Positions 56,350 to 64,000 of a stretch of DNA of 64,000 bases are shown in pieces. The DNA is from Bombella dulcis (GTDB taxonomy: Bacteria; Pseudomonadota; Alphaproteobacteria; Acetobacterales; Acetobacteraceae), in assembly GCF_026385505.1 (NCBI RefSeq), contig NZ_JANIDV010000001.1, forward strand, positions 434,001-498,000, read 5' to 3'. Every line of letters begins with the position of its first letter. Position 1 is the first letter of the stretch. The notes beneath the pieces were generated by a model. The model was not told the DNA's origin, made no database searches, and was given only the letters and a program-made list of their open reading frames with translations. Position numbers and translations under genes: made by a program.

Positions 56350-56470
56350 AGAGATACCCTCTTTTTCCATAACGGCATTAACACTTCATGCATTTGCCAT
56401 ACTTTTCAGATGGCATACTGAGCGGCTTTTGGGTAGATGTAGGCGGCCAACCCTGGAGACGAAAGCTAGA

Positions 56471-57466
56471 ATGACTGAACAGACCTGCCCCTCGCCGCAG
56501 ACGGCCATCCTCCGGCACGACTGGACCCGCGAAGAAGCAGAAGTCCTGCTTGCGCTACCCTTTCCGGAACTGATCTTTCAGGCCCAGCTGACGCATCGGC
56601 AATTTTTTGACCCTACGAAGGTACAGATATCAACCCTGCTTTCCATCAAGAGCGGAGGATGCCCGGAAGACTGTTCCTATTGCCCTCAGAGTGCACATCA
56701 TGACAAACGCATGGCGGCAGAAAAGCTCATGCCACTGGAGCGTGTCATCGCCGACGCAAGACGCTCAAAAGAAGCTGGAGCAGGCCGTTTCTGCATGGGA
56801 GCAGCATGGCGCTCCCCAAAAGACCGTGACCTTGATGCTGTCTGCCAGATGGTCAAGGAGGTCAAATCTCTTGGCCTTGAAACATGTCTAACCATCGGCA
56901 TGCTGACACCCAGCCAGTCTGCCCGTCTGAAAGAAGCAGGACTGGATTATTACAATCATAATCTTGATACATCCGAAGATTTTTACGGAAAGATCATCAC
57001 GACACGGACCTATCAGCAGAGACTGGATACGCTTTCCAATGTGCGGGAAGCCGGCATCAAGGTTTGCTGTGGCGGAATCATCGGTATGGGTGAAGATGTA
57101 CAGGACCGTGCAGGATTACTGACCACTCTAGCCAATCTACCAACTCATCCAGAGAGTGTCCCTATCAACCTCCTTGTTCGAGTTGAAGGCACACCACTCG
57201 CTGATGAAGAAACAGTAGATCCCATCACGTTTGCTCGTGTCATCGCCACAACCCGCATTATGATGCCAGCCAGCCACGTCCGCCTAGCCGCCGGACGTGA
57301 AAACATGTCTGAATCTACTCATGCTCTCTGTTTTCTGGCCGGTGCAAACTCCATTTTTTGGGGAGAGAAACTGTTGACGACGCCAAACCCCGCACAGAAC
57401 AGGGATACGGAACTGCTTGCCATGCTAGGGATGAGTCCGATAGTACAAAAAGCCGCCACAGCTTGA
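56471..57466 (+). CDS. bioB: Biotin synthase
   Basis: A 331-residue radical SAM enzyme inserting sulfur into dethiobiotin. The radical SAM cluster motif is [11 protein letters not shown]; conserved YNHNLDTS and RVEGTPLAD segments are present. I begin at ATG 56471 (MTEQTCPSP); a longer frame from 56429 adds a poorly conserved prefix. Divergent from the ferritin-like gene. Confidence 0.95.
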
Positions 57467-57487: not shown

Positions 57488-57520
57488 AAAACGCTCCAGA
57501 AATGATTCTGGAGCGTTTTT
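57488..57520. terminator. Bidirectional terminator after bioB
   Basis: A perfect 14-bp stem (57488-57501 with 57506-57519) with loop ATGA and a following T-run, overlapping by two bases the stop of the convergent lipoprotein gene. Confidence 0.9.
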
Positions 57521-58313
57521 ATTGCACTCCCTGTGCTTTCACGCTATCAGAAAACTGCTTCATGACATCAGAGGCCATATTCTGCTGCCCCATAGCCCGT
57601 AAAGCTCTTACCTCCAGAAGCAACGCCCGACGCATTGCTTCATAATCCATCTCTTCCTCACGAATTTTAACCAGGTCTCTAGCTCCATCAGCAGCCTGTG
57701 ACCAGTTCTGGTCCATCATAAAACGACGAACAAACAGCTCTTTCAGATCAGCCTGCTCATGGTCAGTTGCCTTCTTGGTGGCTGTCAGATGATTGATAGT
57801 ATCTTCCAATGTTGTTCGATCAGATAATTCAGATGCGGCAAACCCACTCATGGCATAGGCCTTTAAACATATACTGTTATCCATACTGCTTTTAGCAAGA
57901 TTGGCCTCGTGACCAGCAGCCCGCCATGATTTTTGACCATAAAAAATGGACGAACGCACCAGATGCAAGTCCGCCCGCTGAGCTGCAGTCCATCCTCTTG
58001 CAGTCAAAGCTTCCGAAACACGGTCAAGCGTTGCCAGGCTGGTTTTATAATCTTTCAGACGCAGTTCACTGATCGCCAGATTAAATCCAGCATCATGAAT
58101 CGCCCGTGGATCATCAATCAGGAAAGCCCGGTCCAGAGCTATTGCATATTGCTGTTGAGCCTGCTTGATATAACCAAGCTTGAATACGCTGTCGGCTGCT
58201 TCCATCATGCTCGCATAATGCGAGTCCTCCCATTCACCATGCCCGCCACCAAAGCATCCGGAAAGAAATCCTGCACATAAAGGTAAGACTATGATGTAGG
58301 AACGGAGTTTCAT
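57519..58313 (-). CDS. Helical-repeat lipoprotein of the MCE operon
   Basis: A 264-residue lipoprotein with lipobox LSGC (LCAGFLSGC, acyl Cys20). The rest is helical with TPR/SEL1-like periodicity (ALDRAFLIDDPRAIHDAG, LRLKDYKTSLATLDRV, and so on). Its start overlaps the MCE-protein stop (ATGA), so it is the last gene of a five-gene operon. An outer-membrane partner or scaffold role is inferred from position; the usual partners are MlaA or PqiC-type lipoproteins. Confidence 0.75.
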   Translation of the reverse strand: MKLRSYIIVLPLCAGFLSGCFGGGHGEWEDSHYASMMEAADSVFKLGYIKQAQQQYAIALDRAFLIDDPRAIHDAGFNLAISELRLKDYKTSLATLDRVSEALTARGWTAAQRADLHLVRSSIFYGQKSWRAAGHEANLAKSSMDNSICLKAYAMSGFAASELSDRTTLEDTINHLTATKKATDHEQADLKELFVRRFMMDQNWSQAADGARDLVKIREEEMDYEAMRRALLLEVRALRAMGQQNMASDVMKQFSDSVKAQGVQ

Positions 58314-59281
58314 GGCCGCACCTCATGGGCCGGAAGTCTACGGGTAGGCCGACGGTTGCTGCCGCCATGACCACCCAATATCCATAGACTCCGCAACTGG
58401 TCGCTCAACTTGCGTAAACTGTCCGCCGTGGCCTCAGCCTCAGCCAGAACAGCTGGCAACTGTTCAGTTGCATCAGCCACATTATGAATGGTCCGTTTCA
58501 TATCCGGAGTGGCACCCTTCAGACCATCGGTCATGCTATGAACATTCCGCATGGTGCCATTGGCTTCATTCAGAGTAATTTGGAGTTTTTTCTCAAGGGG
58601 CTGCACATCCTGAATGGCCTGATTCAAAGATTTCAGGATCGTATTGACTCGCCGGGCTGTCTCTTCCTTTGTGAGTAACGCACCAGCTGTTCCCTTGCCT
58701 GCATGAAGATCCACCATGATATCCCGTGCCTGCTTGGTAATTTCTTCCACATTGTCCATGGCAGGCATAAGGCGGGCACGCAGGTCTACCAGGGTCTGAA
58801 CAATCATGTCGGCTGGATTTGGCTCGACACTGGTATTCAGCACAGCATAATCCCAGTTCAGGGGAGCACCCTGCCCACGACTGATCTCGATATAACCGGC
58901 TCCTGTCACAACGAGACGACGCTTGATGGTCGCCACACTATCGCTACGGATATAGCGTTCAAAATGAGGTTCGATTGTACCTTCTGCATACATGCGCCCC
59001 GACTCGTTGAGGTCCAGTTTACGAATCTCGCCTACACGAACCCCCATGACCTCAATATCATTATTAACAGCCAGTCCTGCCACACCACTCTCTGGCAGAA
59101 CAAAATGAAGCCGACCAGCTGGGGTAAGCCACTGTTTGAGAAAACCAGCCTCAATCAATGCAGCGGTCAAGATGACGAAAGATAGCAGAACCAGCAGTCC
59201 TACCCATTCATCCATGAAGGAACTTCTGAACAAGGGAGCAGCCAGACCAGAGTTCCGACGCAAGCGTAAAGGACGCATCAC
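58310..59281 (-). CDS. MCE-domain substrate-binding protein (MlaD/PqiB-like)
   Basis: A 323-residue inner-membrane-anchored periplasmic protein. A single transmembrane helix (VGLLVLLSFVILTAALIEAG) precedes one MCE domain (about 58-135) with VNNDIEVMGVRVGEIRKL and VVTGAGYIEISRG, then a long helical, largely coiled-coil tail. MCE rings form the hydrophobic channel of lipid transporters. It is next to the ATPase-like and permease genes of the same operon. Confidence 0.9.
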   Translation of the reverse strand: MMRPLRLRRNSGLAAPLFRSSFMDEWVGLLVLLSFVILTAALIEAGFLKQWLTPAGRLHFVLPESGVAGLAVNNDIEVMGVRVGEIRKLDLNESGRMYAEGTIEPHFERYIRSDSVATIKRRLVVTGAGYIEISRGQGAPLNWDYAVLNTSVEPNPADMIVQTLVDLRARLMPAMDNVEEITKQARDIMVDLHAGKGTAGALLTKEETARRVNTILKSLNQAIQDVQPLEKKLQITLNEANGTMRNVHSMTDGLKGATPDMKRTIHNVADATEQLPAVLAEAEATADSLRKLSDQLRSLWILGGHGGSNRRPTRRLPAHEVRP

Positions 59282-59288
59282 ATATCTC

Positions 59289-60023
59289 TCACTTTACGAG
59301 ACCATTATTACCAAGCCGGAAACGCTGCATACCCGGTCTTGCATAACCAGCCCATGCCGAACGCTCCGATCCGATCCATAACACCGCACAGCCACGCTCC
59401 CTTGCTGCCGTCAATTCAGTCAGAAACGCATTATACAGTTCAACAGGCGCACTGAGACTGACGGGATTCTCAAGTAAAAGCAAGGAAGGCCTGTTCATGA
59501 AAGCCCTCACATATTCTGAACGCTTCCTATCCAGAGGAGACAGTTTCTCAGGCAGCTGTGTTGGAAGACCAGGCAGACCAAATGACCGAGAAAGATGAAC
59601 GGCCTCTTCCACCAACTGGTCATAGGGGGCACGACTATGATGCAGACTTGGCCATAAAATATTCAGATGCATCTCATAGAGGTCTATCCAGCCACTTTCT
59701 TCTGTTATACGGCCGATCCTGCCACGAAGGGCCTGTGCCCGTCTTTCATCAAGCTCCGCCCAGTCCAGCCCCATACATTTGACTGTTCCCTGCTCCCTCC
59801 CTGTCGCTGCGTCTTGTTTAACTGGCAGAAGACCGGCACAGAAATCCGCAAACTGCGATGTCCTGAAATTATCCCGACATTCCACGAACACACATTCACC
59901 AGCTTCCATGGCAAGGTTATATTTTACCGGAGGTAATCCTGTTGAATCTGATACAGGAACGGCATCATCCAGTTTCAGAATAAAGCCATAATCACTTTCT
60001 GAGAGAGCTGTATCCTCAGCCAT
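59289..60023 (-). CDS. Degenerate ABC ATPase-like protein of the MCE operon (pseudo-ATPase)
   Basis: A 244-residue protein in the position of MlaF. The overall layout of an ABC nucleotide-binding domain is still traceable: AGECVFVECRDNFRTSQFAD where Walker A should be (48-57, no GxxGxGK[S/T]), LSPLDRKRSEYVRAF in place of LSGGM.RR (161-165), LLLLENP in place of the Walker B LLLLDEP (181-187) and no switch His (IGSERSAW). All catalytic motifs are therefore lost while the frame is intact, so it is probably a functional pseudoenzyme rather than a dead gene. Overlaps the permease gene by 1 bp and lies 7 bp before the MCE gene. Confidence 0.85.
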   Translation of the reverse strand: MAEDTALSESDYGFILKLDDAVPVSDSTGLPPVKYNLAMEAGECVFVECRDNFRTSQFADFCAGLLPVKQDAATGREQGTVKCMGLDWAELDERRAQALRGRIGRITEESGWIDLYEMHLNILWPSLHHSRAPYDQLVEEAVHLSRSFGLPGLPTQLPEKLSPLDRKRSEYVRAFMNRPSLLLLENPVSLSAPVELYNAFLTELTAARERGCAVLWIGSERSAWAGYARPGMQRFRLGNNGLVK

Positions 60024-60841
60024 CAGAAGCTCCCCAGAATAACGTCAATCAATACATTGATGACTAGAATGGACATTATCCCCCGCGAAAACCCCCGTGG
60101 CATGAAGGTGGTCAGGTTGTCCTCAGCTGTCACATCCATACCGGAAAGACAGCAACACAGACCGACACTTGCCCCACTCAGAAGAAATTTCAGAGGAATA
60201 CCCAGATAATCTCCTGGTTCCATACTGTTGACGACTTCAAAAATGAAGGACCAGATCGAGGTAGTTACAATTCCTTTTGCCCAGCAGGCCACATATCCCA
60301 TGGCCAGGGCAATCACACTGAAAATGGTTCCCAGCGTGAAGCCACTGACGGTGGTGGCAATAGTACGTGGCACAACGAACACCAGAAAAGGATCAATACC
60401 CATCCCTGTCAGTATCTTGAGCCGTCCACCAGTTGTCAGATTTCCCATCTCCGTCAGCATCAGCATACCCGATCGTCCCAGCAGAATAACTCCCACTAGA
60501 ATGGGAGCTATTTCCCGTAACAAAACGCTTGAAATCAGACTTCCTGTCATCTGGGACATGCCCGCAAAACCAAGCCAGTAGACAGCCTGCGACACCAAGC
60601 CCAGCCCCGTAATGACGGCCACCACGACAACGCTGAAAAAACCACTACCGACAAGCTGACGCAGGTTCCGACGGAATTCAATGATGACCGTCCGCCGCCA
60701 TGCACTGGGGTGCAATGTTTCATAAAGCACCCCCCAGGCAGCTCCGACCATGATCAAGAAAAAGCGGGGCTGAGACCGGGAAAAACGTCCCAGTATAGCC
60801 AAACCGCTATTGATAATGGCAAAACGCTCAAAAAAATTCAT
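60023..60841 (-). CDS. MlaE-family permease
   Basis: A 272-residue inner-membrane permease with five or six hydrophobic segments and the family signature LLREIAPILVGVILLGR followed by LTTGGRLKILTGMGIDPFLVFVVPR. It binds the MCE ring and moves glycerophospholipids or related lipids between membranes. The start overlaps the sensor's stop (ATGA). Confidence 0.92.
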   Translation of the reverse strand: MNFFERFAIINSGLAILGRFSRSQPRFFLIMVGAAWGVLYETLHPSAWRRTVIIEFRRNLRQLVGSGFFSVVVVAVITGLGLVSQAVYWLGFAGMSQMTGSLISSVLLREIAPILVGVILLGRSGMLMLTEMGNLTTGGRLKILTGMGIDPFLVFVVPRTIATTVSGFTLGTIFSVIALAMGYVACWAKGIVTTSIWSFIFEVVNSMEPGDYLGIPLKFLLSGASVGLCCCLSGMDVTAEDNLTTFMPRGFSRGIMSILVINVLIDVILGSF

Positions 60842-63225
60842 GCATTTCCTGCCACGGCGGTCTCACTCCTTCCCGCCAGAATATAGCTATTGGAAATACC
60901 ATTATTAGGCAGGAAGAACTCACCTCTCAGACGGAACAGGAAAGCACCCTGCAATGTCTGATAAGCACGCTCGGAAACCTGAATCTGTCCACCATCAGGC
61001 GCATTATGGGCCAGAGCTTCAGCCATTGTCAGACCTTCCCCCCAGAGGTTGAAGATGTCGCACTTCTCACCAAAATAGGCGATGAGAACTGGTCCAACGT
61101 CAATCCCGATACGGAACATGAGCTGTGTATTCATCCGGGAAATGACCATCAGACAGGCCTCACGAATGCCAATAGCTGCCTCTGCCAGACAGACAGCTCC
61201 TTCGGCATCCACATTCTGGGAGCAGCTTCCCAGAAAAATGAAGCGGTTCCCGGCTATCTGAGCAGAGAATAAGCCCCTTTCCTTCGCAATCGCTTCAATC
61301 TTGCTCACAAGTTCAGCGACCAGTTCCAGCATGGCCTGCGCTGTATCCTTGTTGGAGGAGTAAGACTCGGAAAACTCCAGCACCATAATCGGAACAGTTG
61401 GATAAAGACCCGCAGCAGGCCGACTATCCCCTTCTTTCTCATCAGGCTGAAGAAGAAACCCTTCAACAACACGCATCTGCGGCTTTGACTGACGGGCTAA
61501 AGACTGCACAGGCATCTGCCCAGGCTGTTGAGGAGTCAGCTTTCTCTCTTCCTCCTGCACATGCCCGAACCGAACGGCAAGTACGGACGCAATCAGCATG
61601 AGAACACGATCAGCTTCACCTAGCTGATACGGGTCTTCAAGCATGATGGCCCCCACCGGACGATGTTCTTCCATCACTGGAAGGAAAAACAGATGACGAG
61701 AGCCAATCATACGCATGAACACGCGCTGCACGCTCTGGAAACGCTGATCTTCTTCTGCATTGGGAAGATCAATCACATGTCCACCGTCCAGACATTCAAA
61801 CAGGCCAGGATGTCCGGTTCGGGTCAGTTCCATGCCGGAACCATGCGCATCACGTCCTCGATCAAACATGTCTTCACAGAGCAGACGGTTTCCATCGGAA
61901 AGCAGCCGCCAGATACTGGCCCGACGGGCGGATGCCCGCTCTGCCAATGCTTCACTGAAGTAAGGCTGTTCCCGCTCAGAATTCAAAAGTCCTTCAGTAT
62001 TGGTAATCCTAAGAAGGACGACGTTATCTTCCTTCTTTTTTTCTGCAACCGCAGTCAGGTCTTTCTGAAGACGTACAACGCGCCGCCCCTGATAGATCAG
62101 CCCCATGGCAAGTATTAGTGCCAATCCAACGATGATAATGGAGAAATAGACTGCCTGTTTCTGTACGGCATGCGTGAAACTTGCAAAGTCACTCTCAGGG
62201 GCATTCAGCAGCAGCACCCATGATCGTTTAGCCAGAGGCATGGCAGAAGCAATGGTAACGTAATTCTCACCCCTTGCTCTCACCATCCCTGTTCCGTCTC
62301 CCAGTACACGGAATACATTGAGAGCTTTAACGAAGACGGGCTGGGTCTTAGGGTCCAGATGCACATTAGTGGCATCAAAGCCGGGCTTGCCAATATCCAT
62401 CATATTATGACCGGCAATGACATGCCCGCTCAGATCCACGATCACGGCCTGCCCGCTTTTTCCCACCTTGAGACTATTAACGAAGCTCGTAAGCTGATTA
62501 AGCGAAATACTGATGGCAAAAACAACGTGACGGCCATCCAACAGACGAAAGGCCATGGACGCCGTCACAATAAACTGATGTGTTGAGAGATAGGGATAGG
62601 GATCCGTCCAGAACAGACGATGGTCTGGTGTACGGTCTTCAAAACGAAGTGCCCCTTTGTACCAGGGACGCAAACGCGGGTCATATCCTTCCGCCGACAG
62701 CCTGTCTGTGGAAATGAAACGCCCATCCTTGTCAGTTATTCTGTGACGATAGTAGGGAGCACCATCTTCCTGCTGAAGAGTTGTTTCCTCATACTCCCCT
62801 TCCCGCCGGGCTGACATCCAGAAATGCCCCTGATCGTCCGCCATGTAGAAACTGTCCACATGTGGCATACCCCGCAGAACCGAACGCCCCAGAGCCATGA
62901 AATTGTCAGCATTGACTTTCATGTCGTTACTGGCGAGCAGACCACTCGCCATGAAAGAAATTCCCGTTGCCGGTGACAGATAGTGGCTGACTTCCTCCGT
63001 GATATAACGCTGCTGACTTCTGAGTAGATTGCGTGAAAGGGTGATCGCTCCTTCCCGCATGGTCCGGTATGTATACAGAGTAACCAGAGCAATAGTCACA
63101 ATGACCAGGATCACTCCCAGGATTGGCCCGATGAACTGGAAGAGCTGCCACCGCCGACCGGTAGTATCAATGGCAGGATTGACGATCTCATCTGTTGCCA
63201 AGGTTTTAAAATCCCTTTTGATCAT
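60838..63225 (-). CDS. dCache-GAF receptor with degenerate class III cyclase domain
   Basis: A 795-residue sensor. One transmembrane helix (about 30-53), a double-Cache periplasmic domain (55-350: PWYKGALRFEDRTPDH, YYRHRITDKDGRFIST), a second helix (359-379), a GAF-like region (about 415-565) and a C-terminal cyclase-homology domain (620-785). The cyclase metal aspartates are replaced: VLEFSES where LFADI is expected, and QIAGNRFIF for IGDAVMA. No adenylate/guanylate cyclase activity is expected. I choose ATG 63225; longer frames from 63327 or 63252 would overlap the divergent gene. First gene of the operon with MlaE, MlaF-like and MCE, so it may sense lipid or stress and control them by protein contact. 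Confidence 0.8.
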   Translation of the reverse strand: MIKRDFKTLATDEIVNPAIDTTGRRWQLFQFIGPILGVILVIVTIALVTLYTYRTMREGAITLSRNLLRSQQRYITEEVSHYLSPATGISFMASGLLASNDMKVNADNFMALGRSVLRGMPHVDSFYMADDQGHFWMSARREGEYEETTLQQEDGAPYYRHRITDKDGRFISTDRLSAEGYDPRLRPWYKGALRFEDRTPDHRLFWTDPYPYLSTHQFIVTASMAFRLLDGRHVVFAISISLNQLTSFVNSLKVGKSGQAVIVDLSGHVIAGHNMMDIGKPGFDATNVHLDPKTQPVFVKALNVFRVLGDGTGMVRARGENYVTIASAMPLAKRSWVLLLNAPESDFASFTHAVQKQAVYFSIIIVGLALILAMGLIYQGRRVVRLQKDLTAVAEKKKEDNVVLLRITNTEGLLNSEREQPYFSEALAERASARRASIWRLLSDGNRLLCEDMFDRGRDAHGSGMELTRTGHPGLFECLDGGHVIDLPNAEEDQRFQSVQRVFMRMIGSRHLFFLPVMEEHRPVGAIMLEDPYQLGEADRVLMLIASVLAVRFGHVQEEERKLTPQQPGQMPVQSLARQSKPQMRVVEGFLLQPDEKEGDSRPAAGLYPTVPIMVLEFSESYSSNKDTAQAMLELVAELVSKIEAIAKERGLFSAQIAGNRFIFLGSCSQNVDAEGAVCLAEAAIGIREACLMVISRMNTQLMFRIGIDVGPVLIAYFGEKCDIFNLWGEGLTMAEALAHNAPDGGQIQVSERAYQTLQGAFLFRLRGEFFLPNNGISNSYILAGRSETAVAGNA

Positions 63226-63300: not shown

Positions 63301-64000
63301 ATGCGGACAATGATGAAGCGCAACCATCTTTTATGCCGTGCTGTCATTTCGTTAACAGGAAATGACAGAGTCAGCTTTCTGAATGGTCTCATAACCAATG
63401 ATGCCCAGTCTCTACCGGTCGGAAGGACCTGCTGGGCTGCCATGCTCAATGCTCAGGGACGTATCCAGACACTTTTTTTTCTCTGGAAAACAGACACGGC
63501 CCTCCTGCTAGACCTTCCAGAAGAAAAGGCTGAATCTTTCATGAAATCGCTTCGTCGTTTCAGACTGCGAGCCGATGTAGAGATTGAGCTGCTGGACGGT
63601 GCCATCATGACAGGGGCACCAGACACTTCACCACCGGAGAATGCCATTATTCAGGCTCTGGATCCTCGACATCCTTCTCTTGGCTGGCGGGCTATTGTGT
63701 CCGGTTCTTCTGCCGTCAACCATGATACCACCCTGTTGACCCGTCATCTTCACATCGGCGTGCCAAGTGATGAAGATATCGCCCCCGGGCAGACACTGGT
63801 TCTGGAGGCCAATATGGACCATCTGCATGGCGTTTCATGGACGAAAGGCTGCTATCTGGGACAGGAAGTCACAGCCCGAACCCATTATCGAGGCCTTATT
63901 AGGAAACGGATACTGCCCATCATATCTGCTGATGAACGTCCTTTACCCGATGAGGGCATTATTACATCAAAAGGGCAGAATGTCGGTGAGTTACGGTCCC
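63301..64000 (+). CDS. ygfZ: YgfZ/GcvT-like folate-binding protein (3' end outside window)
   Basis: At least 233 residues read to the window edge. The family motif KGCYLGQEVTARTHYRG is present, as well as LNGLITNDAQ near the N-terminus. YgfZ helps maintain Fe-S enzymes such as MiaB and binds folate. Start may be ATG 63301, 63310 or 63313; ribosome binding sites are weak. Divergent from the sensor gene. Confidence 0.85.
   Translation, partial: MRTMMKRNHLLCRAVISLTGNDRVSFLNGLITNDAQSLPVGRTCWAAMLNAQGRIQTLFFLWKTDTALLLDLPEEKAESFMKSLRRFRLRADVEIELLDGAIMTGAPDTSPPENAIIQALDPRHPSLGWRAIVSGSSAVNHDTTLLTRHLHIGVPSDEDIAPGQTLVLEANMDHLHGVSWTKGCYLGQEVTARTHYRGLIRKRILPIISADERPLPDEGIITSKGQNVGELRS

Follow-up and report, generated by a model that had tools for sequence, protein, structure and literature searches.

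We analyzed a five-gene operon on the minus strand of a 64,000-nucleotide stretch of the Bombella dulcis genome (contig NZ_JANIDV010000001.1, positions 434,001 to 498,000; hereafter the window). The operon spans positions 57519-63225 of the window and encodes, in this order, a receptor, an MlaE-like permease, a protein resembling ATP-binding cassette (ABC) ATPases, here named psF, an MCE protein and a TPR lipoprotein. Our main finding is that psF is almost certainly a stably inherited pseudo-ATPase, in which the ABC fold was kept and the catalytic site is gone. With regard to function, we give an even chance to the operon being an MCE/MlaE lipid conduit that works independently of an ATPase and under the control of the receptor.

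psF lacks the catalytic site of ABC ATPases but retains their fold

The psF gene (59289..60023, minus strand) codes for 244 amino acids, and the protein was classified as an ABC-ATPase-like pseudo-enzyme by motif loss, an AlphaFold2 (AF2) model and Foldseek. The window protein has ECRDNFRTS at the Walker A position, LSPLD at the signature, LLLLEN at the Walker B motif and WIGSE, without a histidine, in the switch region, and the D-loop is lost. The Pfam profile ABC_tran scored 18.7 bits, which is below its 25-bit cut-off. In a set of 118 distinct psF sequences, the Walker A lysine (GxxGxGK[ST]) was present in none and GK[ST] did not occur anywhere in any of them. The position of the Walker B aspartate (E185) is occupied by glutamate in 115 of the 118 sequences, with aspartate kept in a single one, and the last signature position (D165) is aspartate in 116, while the signature glycines are gone in nearly all. 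The D-loop is likewise lost, and the switch histidine is not among the commonest residues listed for its position. All catalytic residues were present in each of the 29 canonical MlaF proteins that served as controls. The preliminary description of this DNA had reported an MlaF-like protein devoid of Walker A, the signature, the Walker B Asp-Glu and the switch histidine, which was borne out by this comparison. The open reading frame of the window psF is continuous, no intact motif exists in a different frame or at another place, and no sister species was found to carry a canonical MlaF at the operon's ATPase position.

The AF2 model of psF, calculated from the family alignment, reached a predicted local distance difference test score (pLDDT) of 92.9. 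A Foldseek search with this model gave E. coli MlaF as top match (6xgz_A, E 4.8e-13) and more than 1,000 matches at E ≤ 0.001, of which those listed were ABC ATPases. Compared to a functional ABC ATPase, psF thus has the fold and is devoid of Walker A, the signature, the Walker B Asp-Glu, the D-loop aspartate and the switch histidine. Profiles could not place psF in the MlaF subfamily, as FtsE, LolD, MacB, DppD and MlaF profiles or chains score alike. Because the profiles do not discriminate, it is the operon position, single-sequence matches in the PDB and the top fold match that argue for a kinship of psF with MlaF.

The conservation pattern of psF is inverted relative to that of canonical MlaF. 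Walker A has an entropy of 2.05 bits in psF and 0.21 in canonical MlaF, the D-loop one of 2.57 and 0.13, respectively; few parts of psF vary as much as Walker A, the Q-loop and the D-loop. A stretch ending with RGRIGR (0.56) and the sequence FGLPGLP (0.31), on the other hand, vary less in psF than in the canonical proteins, and psF has acquired new near-fixed residues including E185 and D165. The ratio of nonsynonymous to synonymous substitution rates (dN/dS) of psF was 0.04-0.09 between congeners, for which dS was saturated, and 0.028 for the pair with unsaturated dS (0.63); the receptor gave 0.042 for this pair. psF is therefore under strong purifying selection. Together with the loss of the motifs and the kept fold, this indicates that psF is kept for a role that does not involve the hydrolysis of ATP.

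The psF operon is widespread in acetic acid bacteria

To describe the distribution of the operon, we used 250 genomes of the family Acetobacteraceae, 76 of which encode psF, 78 the receptor and 75 both. In the three genomes with only the receptor the contig ends there, and the one with only psF (G231) has the gene order MlaE-psF-MCE (L054, 6199-8774). Loci were also collected from named genomes by alignment of the permease (MlaE) sequence, which yielded 77 loci, 74 of them alphaproteobacterial and carrying the operon. psF is present in 72 of these 74 loci, the other two being truncated by contig ends before psF. The named loci come from Bombella, Saccharibacter, Gluconobacter (including G. oxydans), Komagataeibacter, Gluconacetobacter (including G. 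diazotrophicus PA1 5), Asaia, Acidomonas, Neokomagataea, Swaminathania, Tanticharoenia and Brytella, as well as from a Rhodospirillum metagenome-assembled genome and Dongia deserti. When 385 genomes of the class, including five of the window's own family, were searched with a psF profile, orthologues scored 245-319 bits and any other ABC ATPase at most 89 bits. Outside the family, this search found psF in only two genomes, both of which carry the full operon. All four orthologues from outside the family are degenerate, and the loss of the ATP site therefore predates the sampled diversity. A search of plasmids gave no match.

The psF gene invariably lies between those of MlaE and the MCE protein, at the place of the ATPase, and the short spacing of the genes (mostly overlaps of 1-4 bp or small gaps) is maintained across the psF family. 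In the window, successive genes overlap by 4, 1 and 4 bp and a 7-bp gap separates the psF and MCE genes, which confirmed the overlaps of 1-4 bp or 7-bp spacing described before. The span of 58310-63225 given at that time left out the lipoprotein gene, although this gene was counted in the accompanying text. The arrangement had furthermore been called very unusual and possibly undescribed. It is common across many genera of acetic acid bacteria and hence not unusual within this lineage. No description of the operon was found in a literature search restricted to open-licence papers.

The operon can be lost, as evident from a broken copy in genome G126 (L055, 4032-7607) with a split receptor gene, a disrupted MlaE gene and a shortened psF gene. 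The copy of its congener G046 (L059) is intact.

The permease is a divergent MlaE protein with an altered coupling helix

The permease gene (60023..60841, minus strand) encodes a divergent MlaE-family protein of 272 amino acids, which was identified with PF02405. Its score of 112.9 bits is lower than those of the two canonical MlaE proteins of the same genome (256 and 194 bits); it is recognized as MlaE by Pfam but falls short of the cut-offs that NCBIfam sets for MlaE. It retains the buried Arg-Glu pair and the lysine of canonical MlaE, which correspond to residues 97, 98, and 205 of the E. coli protein (PMC7790496). The coupling helix, through which MlaE contacts MlaF (PMC7790496) and which would contact the nucleotide-binding domain in the operon permease, is altered. 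An aspartate found in 100% of 31 canonical MlaE proteins is replaced by arginine in 82% of 112 family permeases, and a glutamate found in 90% of the canonical proteins by glycine in 96% of the family permeases. These changes fit a co-adaptation of the permease to psF, and they argue, without proving it, against the docking of a normal MlaF on this permease.

The cyclase domain of the receptor is degenerate in a mosaic fashion

The receptor gene (60838..63225, minus strand) codes for 795 amino acids from an ATG. Its open frame could start at 63327, but conservation among orthologues starts near the ATG at 63225. The protein consists of a transmembrane segment, a periplasmic dCache domain, a second transmembrane segment, a GAF domain and a degenerate class III cyclase domain, with Pfam scores of 67 bits for dCache_1, 27.7 for GAF and 63.7 for Guanylate_cyc. 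The class III cyclase fold of the C-terminal domain was confirmed by an AF2 model (pLDDT 90), which had Rv1625c (4p2f, E 4e-14) as its top match in Foldseek. The genome contains no other Guanylate_cyc domain than this one.

In the window receptor, the second metal-binding aspartate is replaced by asparagine (GN), the substrate aspartate is also asparagine, and the transition-state asparagine and arginine are replaced. The first metal aspartate is glutamate (LEFSE) according to the two more plausible alignments. Across the family, the second metal aspartate is absent in 109 of 111 receptors, the substrate aspartate in all 111 and the transition-state arginine in 107. The state of the first metal aspartate depends on the alignment, and three alignments disagree. 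It had appeared to be lost throughout in the first of them, a reading that was discarded in view of the other alignments and of the strand boundaries in the AF2 model, which favor, without proving it, an F-x-D in most relatives; it is probably retained in this form in about 80 of 111. The loss of both metal aspartates that had been claimed for the receptor thus holds in the window but not in the family, where the first is probably kept in most members and both are kept in two. The latter are the divergent receptors of L051 (G045) and L052 (G176), in which the other catalytic residues are gone. Their sequences suggest that the loss of the ATPase preceded that of the cyclase.

By every available test the cyclase domain is inactive, and its active site is broken in every member. 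The preliminary description was hence right in placing two pseudo-enzymes in one intact operon, and these two decayed differently, the loss being uniform in the ATPase and mosaic in the cyclase.

In the dCache domain, we looked for the dCache_1AA motif known from the literature (aromatic/Arg ... WY ... Asp). The sequence YDPRLRPWY (YxxRxRxWY) is present, but the distal ligand aspartate is serine in the window, and this position is asparagine in 84 and aspartate in 18 of 111 receptors. The motif is incomplete, so that no ligand is predicted. In one congener (G244; L098, 3850-3904), seven consecutive A mark a frameshift in the receptor gene between the second transmembrane segment and the GAF domain, which could be a sequencing error or slippage. 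A similar A run near 62030-62040 of the window is in frame.

The MCE protein and the lipoprotein have features of a trans-envelope conduit

The MCE gene (58310..59281, minus strand, GTG start) encodes 323 amino acids with a transmembrane anchor, one MCE domain (PF02470, 43.4 bits at a cut-off of 25.1) and a long helical tail. This tail matches positions 350-516 of the PqiB model, the helical needle region. The last gene (57519..58313, minus strand) codes for a lipoprotein of 264 amino acids with TPR-like repeats, which is predicted to reside in the outer membrane. The lipobox cysteine (Cys20) is invariant in 31 orthologues, and wherever the lipobox was recognized the following residue is never aspartate, which in E. 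coli serves as inner-membrane retention signal. In profile searches the lipoprotein matched TPR proteins of the PDB, and it is not of the Mla or PqiC type. With these features, the MCE protein and the lipoprotein are built as expected for parts of a conduit that spans the envelope and is anchored in the outer membrane.

Possible mode of action and alternative explanations

If the operon is a lipid conduit as proposed above, MlaE and a hexameric MCE protein would form the inner-membrane base and a tube crossing the periplasm, and the lipoprotein would attach this tube to the outer membrane. psF would sit on the MlaE coupling helices as a docking and relay subunit. Ligand binding by the periplasmic dCache domain would cause a shape change that passes via the GAF domain and the pseudo-cyclase to psF and MlaE, where it could open or close the conduit. 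Lipids would then travel down a gradient or be driven by another energy source, not by ATP hydrolysis. We infer the physical contacts, the direction of control and the ATP-free flow of lipids. A more specific version of this model, to which we assign somewhat less than an even chance, is a receptor-gated lipid channel in which a periplasmic sensor acts through two stacked pseudo-enzymes, one of cyclase and one of ABC fold, as a purely allosteric relay and the flow is not powered by ATP.

Several observations weigh against a receptor-controlled conduit free of ATPase. Contact between psF and the receptor is suggested solely by the shared operon and their co-occurrence, and in G231 the examined stretch showed no trace of a receptor, so that control by the receptor is not universal. 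The profile searches put psF in the ABC ATPase superfamily and not specifically in MlaF. Finally, a canonical MlaE was present in 26 of 26 psF genomes of the family and in four of four genomes outside the family that were checked.

The operon is indeed not the organism's sole lipid transporter. The search for further Mla systems proposed in the preliminary description revealed, at other sites of the genome, two MlaE-MlaF systems of the ordinary kind and one system of the Pqi type. One of the former is a MlaE-MlaF pair and the other a Mpc-like four-gene system (L042 10389-13885) consisting of an MlaE with a long N-terminal extension, an intact MlaF, an MCE protein with helical tail and a PqiC-type lipoprotein; a STAS domain was not identified in it by Pfam. 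The Pqi-type system has a multi-MCE protein, and there are separate MlaD-type proteins, one of which, of 185 amino acids, is encoded at L043 4127-4684, away from the MlaE loci found. Since each of the two canonical MlaE is followed by an intact MlaF, an ATPase is in principle available in trans and ATP power could be borrowed.

This is the basis of the strongest rival explanation, according to which an intact MlaF encoded elsewhere docks at times on the operon permease and psF competes with it, either as an inhibitory subunit or as one for assembly. MceG, whose gene is unlinked to its transporters, provides a precedent of an ATPase common to several MCE transporters. In mycobacteria it serves the Mce1 and Mce4 transporters (PMC9947336). 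Against such powering in trans, the coupling helix of the operon permease has lost the residues that are conserved where MlaE binds an intact MlaF, and psF is invariably encoded at the place of the ATPase. A mixed psF-MlaF dimer acting as a transporter with one degenerate site is also unlikely: with neither Walker A nor the signature left in psF, the dimer could not form one complete ATP site. On balance, we consider powering in trans possible but rather doubtful.

A second rival holds that the operon encodes mainly a sensor or signaling assembly without net transport, in which the lipid state of MlaE-MCE is reported to the receptor or by the receptor to a partner. The first gene does encode a large receptor with a GAF domain and an output domain of cyclase fold, and there are precedents for ABC transporters that sense together with a receptor partner (BceAB-BceS; the fold matches of psF include 8s5g and 8g4d). 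The output domain, however, lacks the second-metal, substrate and transition-state residues in a genome with no other Guanylate_cyc domain, and the MCE tail and the outer-membrane lipoprotein better suit a trans-envelope conduit. Such an assembly is unlikely on these grounds.

It is very unlikely that psF binds a nucleotide at a non-canonical site as a slow switch and that control is exerted by the adenylate charge instead of the receptor: the near-fixed E185 and D165 could serve a new ligand, but Walker A, Q-loop and D-loop belong to the least conserved parts of the protein. That the operon is a decaying remnant of a normal Mla operon, as single broken copies like that of G126 might suggest, can practically be dismissed in view of the low dN/dS, the continuous frames and the derived residues common to 118 distinct sequences from many genera and to four outgroup genomes.

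Comparison with known lipid transport systems

Among known systems, the operon most resembles Mpc, Mla and Pqi, yet it lacks a defining feature of each. The Mpc system of Brucella abortus (MpcEFDA, PMC12436622) has the same core of an MlaE-type permease, an ABC subunit, an MCE protein with a long helical tail and an outer-membrane lipoprotein, and neither system includes genes for MlaC or MlaA. It differs from the operon by a well-conserved ABC ATPase (MpcF), a STAS domain in MpcE, a PqiC-like lipoprotein and the lack of a receptor; a STAS-MlaE fusion, an intact MpcF and a PqiC-type lipoprotein (PF03886) are all missing in the operon. With E. coli MlaFEDB (PMC7790496), the operon shares the buried Arg-Glu and Lys of MlaE, the MCE domain and an ABC-fold subunit. 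In contrast to MlaFEDB, its ATPase motifs are lost, the coupling helix is altered, MlaB is missing, the MCE tail is longer, and a receptor and a TPR lipoprotein are added. Pfam searches detected neither an MlaB STAS protein nor an MlaC domain among the five gene products, and an intact MlaF is not among them either.

Pqi (PqiABC) and Let (LetAB) are, like the operon, trans-envelope MCE systems without an ATPase, and Pqi has an outer-membrane lipoprotein. They contain PqiA or LetA instead of MlaE and several MCE domains per protein and have neither an ABC-fold subunit nor a receptor, whereas the operon encodes an MlaE permease and a single MCE domain. How PqiA would be energized is described as an open question in PMC10897342. 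The mycobacterial Mce systems with MceG (PMC9947336) are MCE lipid transporters as well, but they use an active ATPase and have neither a pseudo-ATPase in the operon nor a cyclase-type receptor. The receptor shares the fold of its C-terminal domain with class III adenylyl cyclase receptors such as Rv1625c, but not their second-metal, substrate and transition-state residues.

Whether MCE systems need ATP and how lipids cross the bacterial envelope are open questions. Here, an MlaE-type system, a class usually paired with an ATPase, has had this ATPase permanently replaced by a conserved dead copy. The hosts include culturable bacteria (Gluconobacter oxydans, Komagataeibacter, Gluconacetobacter diazotrophicus, Bombella), and with an ordinary MlaE in every genome checked, ATP-driven and ATPase-less MlaE systems could be compared within one cell.

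Genomic setting

The host genome has a size of 1.87 Mb (assembly GCF_026385505.1), and the operon permease is 98% identical to its counterpart in Bombella mellum. The operon is flanked by the biotin synthase gene bioB (56429-57466) and a YgfZ-type gene (63301-63999), a neighborhood that is retained in several other genera.

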